A stretch of 64,000 nt of DNA from Marinobacter sp. AC-23 (lineage in GTDB: Bacteria; Pseudomonadota; Gammaproteobacteria; Pseudomonadales; Oleiphilaceae), in contig NZ_MBPP01000045.1 of the NCBI RefSeq assembly GCF_001858325.1, positions 62,001 to 126,000 of the forward strand, in the 5' to 3' direction. The number at the start of each line of letters is the position of its first letter. Positions within the stretch are counted from its first letter, which is position 1. Below the pieces are notes generated by a model. It did not search any database, had not been told where the DNA came from, and was given only the letters and a program-made list of their open reading frames with translations. Shown here one piece after another: positions 20,645 through 23,078 of this stretch. The position numbers and the translations under genes are program-made.

Positions 20645-20747
20645 GCATGTGGGTCGCCCCGCCCAAAAACCGCTGTGAATACGTCCGTGTACGCTTGGCT
20701 CCGCCATCCATGGCTCCGCACATTTTTGGGCGGGGCGACCCACATGC
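20645..20747. repeat. Long hairpin repeat element, copy 1
   Basis: A perfect 25-bp inverted repeat (arms 20645-20669 and 20723-20747) encloses a 53-base loop. The loop, read on the minus strand, is about 90% identical to the loop of the element at 21368-21465. The arm sequences of the two copies differ except for the inner AAAAA/TTTTT. It lies between DUF1415 and the spermidine-synthase-like gene. The loop contains the octamer GGCTCCGC twice. Confidence 0.9.
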
Positions 20748-20755
20748 TCTTCGAT

Positions 20756-21319
20756 CTACTCCCCTGTTACCGGCGATACCTTTAAGCAGTCGGTGAGAAC
20801 TGTCCGCATTTTCTCGGCACCGAGTTTGTTCATCAGTTCAATATTACGACGCGGAATTCCATCCACATCCGGATGGCTATCAATCGCGGCTTCCAGACTG
20901 GCTTCACGCAACAGGTGCAGCATTGGGAACGGAGAGCGGTTGGTGTAGTTCTCGGCAGCATCCGGTTCCGTGTCTGCAAACTGATAATCTGGGTGGAAAC
21001 TGGCGATCTGGTACACGCCTTCCATGTCCAGATACGTGAGCAAACCATCCGCAGCGTCCAGAAACTCGTTGTAGTCCGCAAAATCCTGCATTACATGGGG
21101 ATGAATCAGGAGAGTGGTTTCGGTTTCAGGCTCATCATCCAAGCGCAGGAGTTCAGTTTGCAGGACCTGGAGAAGTGAATCCTCGTTACCAGCTTCGGAG
21201 ACCACAAACCGAACCCGGTCTCTGACCAGTTCCCGTTTTGCGAACGGGCAAAGGTTGTAACCGACAACGACATCCTCAACCCATTTACGGGTTGCGTGAA
21301 CTACCGATCCTTCGCTCAC
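20756..21319 (-). CDS. DUF1415 family protein
   Basis: 187 residues, complete. Recognised by TRKWVEDVVVGYNLCPFAKREL at the N-terminus (cited here only in part: NLCPFAKREL at about 22-31), TTLLIHPHVMQDFADYNEFL, the FHPDYQFADTEPD segment and the NRSPFPMLHLLREASL stretch. Function unknown; the family is widespread in proteobacteria. Two conserved residues, Cys and His, are compatible with a metal or redox role, but this is speculation. The gene is bracketed on both sides by copies of a hairpin repeat element whose loops point in opposite directions. Confidence 0.85.
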   Translation of the reverse strand: MSEGSVVHATRKWVEDVVVGYNLCPFAKRELVRDRVRFVVSEAGNEDSLLQVLQTELLRLDDEPETETTLLIHPHVMQDFADYNEFLDAADGLLTYLDMEGVYQIASFHPDYQFADTEPDAAENYTNRSPFPMLHLLREASLEAAIDSHPDVDGIPRRNIELMNKLGAEKMRTVLTDCLKVSPVTGE

Positions 21320-21367
21320 TCAAAATTCCTCTAGTTGTTGATCCAACCTACCAAAGTCAGGTCGAGT

Positions 21368-21465
21368 AGGCGGGCAGGGCGAGCCAAAAATGTGCGAAGC
21401 ATGGATGGCGTAGCCAAGCGTACACGGACGTATCCACAGCGTTTTTTGGCTCGCCCTGCCCGCCT
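21368..21465. repeat. Long hairpin repeat element, copy 2
   Basis: A perfect 23-bp inverted repeat (arms 21368-21390 and 21443-21465) encloses a 52-base loop. Compared with copy 1 the loop has four substitutions and one deletion, while the arms are unrelated outside the AAAAA/TTTTT end. It lies between the ybiT stop and the DUF1415 start region. The loop is on the plus strand, opposite to copy 1. Confidence 0.9.
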
Positions 21466-21492: not shown

Positions 21493-23078
21493 TTACAGGT
21501 AACCTTGGCTACGAAGGTAATCATCATAGGTGCCACTAAAGTCCGTAATACCCTCAGGCGTCACCTCAATAATCCGAGTTGCCAGCGAAGACACAAACTC
21601 ACGGTCGTGGCTCACGAAAACCAGCGTGCCGGGATAGTTCTCAAGCGCCAGGTTCAACGCCTCGATGGACTCCATATCCAAGTGGTTGGTGGGCTCATCC
21701 AGGAGCATCACATTTGGCTTTTGCAGAATCAGCTTGCCGAACAGCATGCGGCCCTGCTCGCCGCCCGAGATGACCCGCACAGATTTACCTATGTCATCAC
21801 CAGAGAACAGCATACGCCCCAAGGTGCCGCGTACCAGTTGCTCACCGCCCGTTGTCCACTGGGACATCCATTCAGACAACGTGTCGTCTGCGGCAAAATC
21901 CGCCGTATGATCCTGAGCGTAATAGCCCACCTCGGCGCTGTCGGTCCACTTTATTTCACCGCTGTCAGGCTCGTAAGCACCGGCCAGGCACTGCAGCAGC
22001 GTGGTTTTACCAATGCCATTGGGCCCGATGATAGCCACGCGCTCGCCCGCTTCAACCTGCAAGTTCAACTTGTTGAACAGCGTTTTTCCATCGAAACCCT
22101 TGGTCAGATCCCGAATGGTAACCGCTTGGCGATGCAGCTTCTTGCCCTGTTCAAAACGGATAAACGGGCTGATGCGGCTAGAAGGCTTTACTTCGTCCAG
22201 CTGGATTTTGTCGATTTGACGGGCGCGGGAGGTGGCCTGCTTTGCTTTCGAGGCATTGGCAGAGAAGCGGCTAACAAACTGCTGAAGCTCCGCAATCTGG
22301 GCCTTTTTCTTCGCGTTATCTGAGAGCATGCGCTCGCGAGCCTGGGTGGCAGCGGTCATGTACTCGTCATAGTTGCCCGGGAACAGCCTCAGCTCGCCGT
22401 AATCCAGGTCAGCCATGTGGGTGCACACGCTGTTCAGGAAGTGGCGGTCGTGGGAAATGATGATCATGGTGCTGCTACGAGCCACCAGAATGCTTTCCAG
22501 CCAGCGGATGGTATTGATGTCCAGGTGGTTGGTAGGCTCATCCAGCAACAGCACATCAGGATCCGAAAACAGTGCCTGCGCCAGCAGCACTCGCAGCTTC
22601 CAGCCCGGTGCCAGGCTACTCATGGGCCGTCGTGCTGTTCCAGAGGAATATCCAGGCCCAAAAGCAGTTCACCAGCGCGGGATTCGGCCGTGTAGCCGTC
22701 CATTTCTGCAAACTGTACTTCCAGATCGGCCACCGCCATGCCGTCTTCTTCGCTCATTTCGGCTAGAGAGTAGATGCGATCGCGCTCTTTTTTTACATCC
22801 CACAGCTCTTCATGGCCCATGATCACGGTGTCAATAACCGAGCAAGTCTCATAGGCAAACTGGTCCTGCCGCAGTTTACCCAGGCGAACATTCGGTTCCA
22901 GCATAACCTGGCCGCCCGAAGGTTCCAGGTCGTTACCCAGGATTTTCATCAGCGTGGATTTACCGCAGCCGTTGGCACCGATCAGGCCATAACGATTACC
23001 GTTACCGAATTTGGCGGAAACATTTTCAAACAGGGGTTTGGCCCCGAATTGCATGGTGATATTGGCAGTAGAGATCAA
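21493..23078 (-). CDS. ybiT: ABC-F family ATPase YbiT, frameshifted
   Basis: 528 residues after repair, matching the E. coli YbiT length, with sequence resemblance through the whole protein. First ATPase: Walker [10 protein letters not shown] (34-42). Signature region [15 protein letters not shown] and Walker [12 protein letters not shown] lie beyond a break at about 22624 (CCCC read as CCC, within QHDGPMSS). The linker between domains is basic ([18 protein letters not shown]). Second ATPase: [40 protein letters not shown] proteins act on ribosomes without membrane domains; YbiT's precise duty is little known. Confidence 0.93.

Follow-up and report, generated by a model that had tools for sequence, protein, structure and literature searches.

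A dispersed YPAL-type hairpin element of gammaproteobacteria as a candidate two-site Csr/Rsm-binding structure

The 64,000-nucleotide stretch of the Marinobacter sp. AC-23 genome analyzed here (hereafter the window) contains two copies of a dispersed YPAL-type element. The element family is real, widespread and conserved. Its copies are long hairpins with a conserved twin-loop motif, arms that drift in pairs, and an asymmetry between their two strands. The best explanation we can offer, and one that we put close to an even chance, is that one strand of the element (the GGA strand) acts as a two-site Csr/Rsm-binding hairpin, mounted on a stem that needs pairing and not a particular sequence. 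In its working form, the GGA strand would fold as a long stem, usually 27-30 bp and of any sequence that pairs, closed by a junction. The junction would present two C-ANGGAN-G hairpin loops with their octamers 14-17 nt apart and, as RNA, both loops could be gripped by one CsrA/RsmA dimer. Each transcribed copy may then tether the regulator, or titrate it, at a gene's 3′ end or close by, and the long stem may shield the RNA end or set the RNA up for double-strand processing.

Two copies in the window and a family across the class

The two copies, their parts and the gene between them are as follows (positions are those of the window).

20645-20747: element copy 1; the GGA strand, presumably the active one, is the minus strand and is sense to the DUF1415 gene; the copy lies 8 bases past the DUF1415 stop codon
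20645-20669: copy 1, outer stem arm 1; 25 bp, perfect; private to copy 1 except for its inner CCAAAA-like end
20680-20691, minus strand: copy 1, mini-hairpin P2, TACA-CGGA-CGTA; octamer CACGGACG at 20682-20689
20703-20714, minus strand: copy 1, mini-hairpin P3, GCCA-TGGA-TGGC; octamer CATGGATG at 20705-20712
20723-20747: copy 1, outer stem arm 2; 25 bp, perfect; 53 nt between the arms
20756-21319, minus strand: DUF1415 gene (PF07209), between the two copies; a neighbor, outside the element
21368-21465: element copy 2; the GGA strand is the plus strand, antisense to an ABC-F-like ATPase gene and to the DUF1415 gene
21368-21390: copy 2, outer stem arm 1; 23 bp, perfect
21400-21407, plus strand: copy 2, P3 octamer CATGGATG; the P3 stem is one base shorter in this copy
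21421-21432, plus strand: copy 2, mini-hairpin P2, TACA-CGGA-CGTA; octamer CACGGACG at 21423-21430
21443-21465: copy 2, outer stem arm 2; 23 bp, perfect; 52 nt between the arms

The perfect arms of 25 and 23 bp described in the original prediction were recovered at these positions. So was the likeness of the two centers when one copy is reversed (an inverted match of 50 nt at 94%). The copies do bracket the DUF1415 gene, as had been noted; bracketing a gene is no rule of the family. A 25-base piece of the core, allowing up to three mismatches, occurs in the window at these two places only and in none of 100 shuffles. Both strands of both copies have folding z-scores between -7.3 and -8.7. In the predicted folds of lowest energy, neither window copy shows both mini-hairpins together, a point against the Csr/Rsm RNA reading; the centroid fold of copy 1 has both. 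An Rfam scan of the window at gathering cut-offs gave no match. The ABC-F-like ATPase (named by eye; 21493-23078) is split over two minus-strand ORFs, 21493-22623 and 22620-23078, that overlap in different frames, owing to a frameshift or a sequence error.

A search of the genome and its relatives with the loop, as proposed in the original prediction, finds further copies in the genome, the genus and the class. In the draft genome of the window, 27 places match the center. Four of these are chance 14-mers and were dropped. The other 23 are real (E up to 5.8e-9), and in all of them complementary arms of 20-33 pairs, in some cases with a few mismatches, adjoin the center. A 67-base center, used as the query, matches 96 of 100 genomes sampled from the genus. 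A covariance model built from the 23 copies matches 73/194 genomes of the order (E 1e-3), 48/274 of the class (E 1e-5), and 16/299 of a phylum sample, for which mainly the matching genomes were listed, all 16 within the class. A loop-only first look at six genomes of the genus gave 37 to 78 candidates each, chance ones included. When the same six were searched in depth they had 46 to 123 model matches each, and two genomes of other families had 23 and 137 (E 1e-6, up to 150 candidates scored per genome); these counts may include opposite-strand echoes of some hairpins, since echoes scored up to 49.7 bits in another search, from which such mirror-strand matches were left out. The hosts among the matches listed for a 28-base pattern include Marinobacter, Microbulbifer, Marinobacterium, Saccharospirillum, Pectobacterium, Sodalis, Zobellella, Sedimenticola, and a Pseudomonas, and the similar cores in other gammaproteobacteria mentioned in the original prediction are thus real. 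The loop had no match at E 1e-5 in collections of plasmids and phages. With a Pectobacterium copy as the query, 5/5426 E. coli genomes match, and four of the five places are on plasmids. In the E. coli records (H1-H5), all from wastewater, the match is to a fragment of a YPAL-like core, with 80.7% identity over 78% of the query.

Conserved core, private stems and paired change

The conserved center was originally described as a plain loop. It is instead a junction with two mini-hairpins, both of which are capped by C-ANGGAN-G on the GGA strand. Read along this strand, the center consists of approximately CGT, hairpin P3, CGAGC, hairpin P2, and then TTTACAGCGT. Hairpins were picked from the fetched loci by a stem score of at least 18 and a center of 47-61 nt, whatever their sequence. 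Fetching loci by the DUF1415 protein alone takes no account of the element; the 70 loci obtained in this way have 73 distinct hairpins, 68 with two CANGGANG octamers and five with one. A wider set of 268 hairpins omits the loci fetched by the 28-base pattern, and most of its loci were fetched by the loop or the model; here 239 hairpins have two octamers, 26 have one, and three have none. Shuffled loops have two octamers in 3 of 13,400 cases. One octamer-less outlier (L138) looks unrelated to the family. The two octamers are spaced 14-17 nt apart.

Within the genus, the A of the P2 loop is kept in 152/153 copies, though in 89/153 it stands opposite a C and does not pair. The first N of the loop takes all four bases, and the closing C-G is present in 151/153. 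Because the A is kept even where it has no pairing partner, its conservation points to recognition. As the original prediction had it, the loop is the conserved part of the element; equal-length loops of the 23 copies are 0.90 identical, and the loop is probably also the part that is recognized. The mini-stems of 105 copies from other families vary on both sides (the outer P3 pairs are GC, CG, AU, and UA; P2 has UA, CG, and GC), and 97.8% of the cells of each mini-stem are paired in an alignment that was fitted to the model. In the shuffle control for these copies, both-side changes were reached in 110/500 shuffles and further pair types in 500/500, so that two of the five measures do not exceed the shuffles. 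The corresponding control for the 23 copies gave 2 and 25 of 500 shuffles. Paired cells and covariation scores were matched by 0/500 shuffles in both controls. Three enlarged elements, one upstream of DUF1415 (L067) and two downstream (L072 and L086), have extra branched sequence in the center. By eye, the inserts of L067 and L072 hold a further CATGGACG-capped hairpin.

The outer stem is nearly perfect, usually 27-30 bp long (median 29 bp), and private to each copy. Over all copies, 96.8% of the stem pairs are Watson-Crick. The arms differ from copy to copy save for the inner CCAAAA-like end, and a faint G-rich likeness remains. To call the stems unrelated was nearly right; outside the inner pairs, the arm identity of the 23 copies (0.36-0.38) exceeds that of shuffled arms (0.28). 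The arms covary, both in the covariance-model test that had been suggested and at orthologous DUF1415 sites. It had also been argued that simple duplication could not give such copies, and that the arms must have been replaced or have co-evolved. Co-evolution stands, in that the arms covary; duplication followed by paired drift suffices, and replacement is not needed. The possibility that the arms are copied from the target at insertion was set aside, because the arms of different copies share more likeness than shuffled arms and covary at the same site.

The DUF1415 sites allow the same position to be compared between genomes. Among 70 genomes of the genus, an intact element is found upstream of the gene in 43 and downstream in 34. 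Over 220 random genome pairs per site, divergence is 0.27-0.53 for the outer arms, where it increases with third codon distance (bins up to 0.6), and only 0.07-0.29 for the loops. Arm changes on both sides outnumber one-sided changes by 5716 to 802 at site U and by 3987 to 209 at site D, the comparisons being non-independent. In the closest comparisons (one or two changed pairs), one-sided changes are the more common at site U, 14 against 8; at site D they number 1 against 10. This behavior agrees with selection for pairing, to which template-switch repair perhaps contributes. Several DUF1415 sites without an element keep remnants of the arms and are deletions. Others have a short spacer alone and cannot be distinguished from sites that were never filled. 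Downstream of one DUF1415 gene (L062), only a short perfect palindrome, GCCGGTGGGTAACCCACCGGC, is left of the element, as though the center had been lost by deletion between the arms.

For 26 genomes that have an element at both DUF1415 sites, loop likeness is 0.91 within a genome, versus 0.77-0.78 for the same site between two groups of genomes. The arms are 0.43-0.52 alike between the groups, hardly above the arms of different sites (0.46). The loop type shifts together at both sites, from 52-53 nt (one of 38) in one group to mostly 57-58 nt in the other, as if homogenized. Homogenization and repeated re-insertion both fit this joint shift.

The folded strand, its genes and competing explanations

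The strands of a perfect palindrome fold alike, and therefore only the imperfections of a stem distinguish the two: where one strand has a G-U, the other has an A-C. Leaving out the outer three pairs of each stem, stems read on the GGA strand have 161 G-U, 48 A-C, and 98 other mismatches among 9,495 pairs. Copy by copy, G-U is in excess in 107 of 359 hairpins, A-C in 24, and the two are equal in 228. The G-U:A-C counts are 89:22 and 72:26 for the two directions in which loci were stored, 104:33 outside the genus, and 136:43 without the DUF1415 loci. They are 26:7 where both genes run in the GGA direction, 41:11 where GGA is antisense to both, 45:12 in convergent settings and 13:7 in divergent ones. 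Orthologs of the copy 2 site, where GGA is antisense, give 20:4; the genome of the window alone gives 5:2, which is too few cases. The test of the GGA strand was prompted by a null result for the sense strand, which showed no bias in same-direction settings (37 G-U versus 48 A-C). Folding of the GGA strand thus seems to be of importance also at sites where the mRNA has the opposite strand. G-T is also better tolerated than A-C in single-stranded DNA, and so the G-U excess alone does not mean RNA.

Gene context could be assigned to 288 copies, that is, the 359 hairpins minus 71 with a flank under 600 bases, no GGA, or no ORF on one side. In the frame of the GGA strand, the neighboring genes are convergent in 110, both reverse in 81, both forward in 70, and divergent in 27. 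By simple ORF calls, the median distances to the stop codon facing the element are 33-65 nt. That GGA is antisense to both neighbors in 81/288 copies is the main evidence against the Csr/Rsm RNA reading. A simple sense CsrA site in the 3′ UTR is weakened as a candidate, with GGA antisense in 81/151 same-direction settings; the strongest point against such a role is that the elements adjoin stop codons without choosing sides. This leaves a GGA RNA made by read-through or antisense transcription, a role in single-stranded DNA, or retention for the stem only. The motifs are intact to a similar extent in the two settings, in 168/180 copies where the upstream gene reads GGA and in 95/108 elsewhere (p 0.13). 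The flank profile has no conserved promoter-like block for the GGA strand, and it shows no clear U-tract beyond the stem for either strand.

Some copies occur in clusters. One locus (L389:488-1852, G141:C1) has six tandem units of about 227 bp, each with an element match (the last partial) and GTAGGAGCGGCTTCAGCCGCGA, which resembles a GTAG-type REP. The array looks like two repeat classes multiplied together. Adjacent pairs with the GGA strands pointing outwards are found at L390:2003-2287, L391:1245-1547, and L392:671-955. Among 150 listed matches, all six pairs under 500 bp in the genus have this one relative orientation. Close neighbors in the same direction occur outside the genus (L105, L127, G568, and G792).

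Favoring the Csr/Rsm-binding reading is the match of the loops to what is reported for these proteins. The CsrA SELEX consensus is RUACARGGAUGU with ACA and GGA invariant, the A and GGA of the RsmE hexaloop ANGGAN contact the protein and its N positions vary, and a CsrA dimer bridges two sites 10-63 nt apart, according to the account in PMC7652899. The element has ANGGAN hexaloops closed by C-G, two per RNA, with a spacing within 10-63 nt. The fit is one of sequence and structure, from which binding is predicted. The full SELEX string is found on the GGA strand in 26/268 hairpins and on the other strand in 0/359. A csrA match is present in 72 of the 73 genomes of the order with the element, and the exception is 88% complete; csrA is nearly universal regardless (182/194 genomes of the order). 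Transcription of the GGA strand and its binding by CsrA, with the consequences of that binding, are inferred. A bolder proposal, which we think improbable, is that many gammaproteobacteria have a decentralized Csr/Rsm buffer. Dozens of two-site traps, perhaps more than 100 in some genomes, would lie near gene ends, some antisense, and the level of free CsrA would be set by overall transcription instead of by one dedicated sponge RNA, with the core homogenized in each genome and the stems local and drifting.

Three other explanations were considered. The elements may be MITEs, whose GGA strand, as single-stranded DNA, would form a hairpin recognized by a transposase or other nuclease; the capped hairpins would be landing sites and the copies otherwise idle. 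MITE/REP-like mobility is possible, and a mobile YPAL with target duplications has been reported (PMC2229807). The independence of element orientation from the genes is in keeping with it, as are the six-unit array and the outward-facing pairs of the genus. The GGA strand is also mildly on the lagging side (90/150 listed matches in six genomes), assuming a terminus opposite dnaA, with a p of 0.018 that is too small as the matches are partly orthologous. However, close pairs in the same orientation also occur outside the genus. One or two Y1 transposases are present in six of the eight genomes examined, and no Y1 (IS200/RAYT-type) transposase was found in the draft genome of the window, with its 23 copies, nor in G028, with 46 model matches. 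Elements sit at the two DUF1415 sites in 43 and 34 of 70 genomes of the genus, both motifs are kept in 68/73 hairpins there, and the conserved unpaired A is explained by Csr/Rsm recognition. We consider the MITE explanation unlikely. An element that serves as a two-way transcription terminator or 3′-end stabilizer, in which the stem alone matters, seems to us a little less probable still. Such a role would agree with the location near gene 3′ ends, with convergent settings being the most common and divergent the rarest, and with the statement that YPAL is expressed with upstream genes and perhaps affects RNA stability (PMC2229807). It does not explain the conserved twin loops or the tolerance of wobble pairs on one strand regardless of gene direction. 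The plain terminator of the original prediction is poorly supported, because the flank profile is without a clear U-tract past the stem.

The remaining alternative, and to our minds a distinctly improbable one, is mutational self-repair, in which template switching in DNA keeps the arms complementary without selection for pairing. The arms diverge at the DUF1415 sites and stems nonetheless remain overwhelmingly Watson-Crick, and the excess of both-side over one-sided changes at sites U and D is what this process would give. Against it, the closest comparisons at site U are mostly one-sided (those at site D are not), and a strand-symmetric process predicts no excess of G-U over A-C on one strand. 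Self-repair may act together with selection. Returning to the Csr/Rsm-binding reading, if the loops bind CsrA, these cells have far more CsrA sites than have been counted. Otherwise, a DNA-level process maintains twin hexaloops and near-perfect private palindromes.

Relation to known systems

REPs and REPINs are defined by a short conserved stem with a GTAG/CGTC tag and a small loop, with a RAYT transposase for GTAG repeats, in the account of PMC3733652. The element has a long private stem around a center of about 53 nt, and neither the genome of the window (G000) nor G028 has a Y1 transposase. Intrinsic terminators have a U-tract directly after a G+C-rich stem; the flank profile of the element shows no clear T run there. 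The sponge RNAs CsrB, RsmY, and RsmZ likewise have paired ANGGAN hairpins suited to a dimeric protein. They are single dedicated RNAs with several sites, whereas the element has two sites per copy and many copies. Among eight genomes, RF00166 was found in none (the controls include no Pseudomonas) and RF00018 in one, below the cut-off.

Only one annotated bacterial RNA family passes its cut-off on an element. This is Ysr224 (RF02770), a Yersinia sRNA, with 77.3 bits on a Pectobacterium fontis copy against a cut-off of 70. The match is on the TCC strand, opposite to the GGA strand, which speaks against the Csr/Rsm reading; scores in two other families are 38.0 and 29.9, and there was no match at the cut-off in the window. 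TwoAYGGAY (RF01731), listed for human gut, gammaproteobacteria, and Clostridiales (Weinberg 2010, PMC2864571), is the nearest Rfam model of bacterial type. It has two GGA-capped hairpins inside an outer stem that is called not well conserved. The element too has two A(Y)GGA(Y)-loop hairpins in an unconserved outer stem, with a first N that is not always Y. Copy 1 scores 27.3 bits, below the gathering cut-off of 43 (E 0.075), and TwoAYGGAY is not among the matches listed at E 0.01 for 16 further loci. The CsrA-binding idea is not new for this look-alike, having been proposed from motif matching (PMC4333381), and the proposal favors the Csr/Rsm reading of the element.

We class the element with YPAL/RU-2 of Yersinia, for which we draw on four accounts (PMC2229807, PMC2759123, PMC2267715, and PMC2847712). 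The RU-2/YPAL sequence printed in Table 1b of PMC2759123 has a center composed of CGTCC, a hairpin GCGCCAAGGATGGCGC, a CGAGC linker, a hairpin TACATGGATGTA, and TTTACGGCGT, by eye the same order of parts as in the element. Like the element, YPAL is intergenic and multicopy. According to PMC2229807, it moved recently, duplicates 3-26 bp of its target, has its targets at dyads or beside them, and may affect upstream RNA. The hosts given in these accounts are Yersinia, Erwinia carotovora, and three E. coli matches. YPAL differs in being a single sequence family of about 168 bp (PMC2267715), as opposed to private arms with a median stem of 29 bp, and the inverted repeat described for it is an internal one of 7 bp only (PMC2229807), as opposed to stems of 27-30 bp. 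We found no paper in the open-licence literature that links YPAL to CsrA, nor one that describes a dispersed family spanning the class, stems private to each copy, or the strand signal. The sources cited assign YPAL to Yersinia and related bacteria as a repeat, and describe TwoAYGGAY as an RNA whose function is unknown. A core of this kind is now seen across a bacterial class at tens of copies per genome, in a form that the Rfam cut-offs leave unlabeled in the window.
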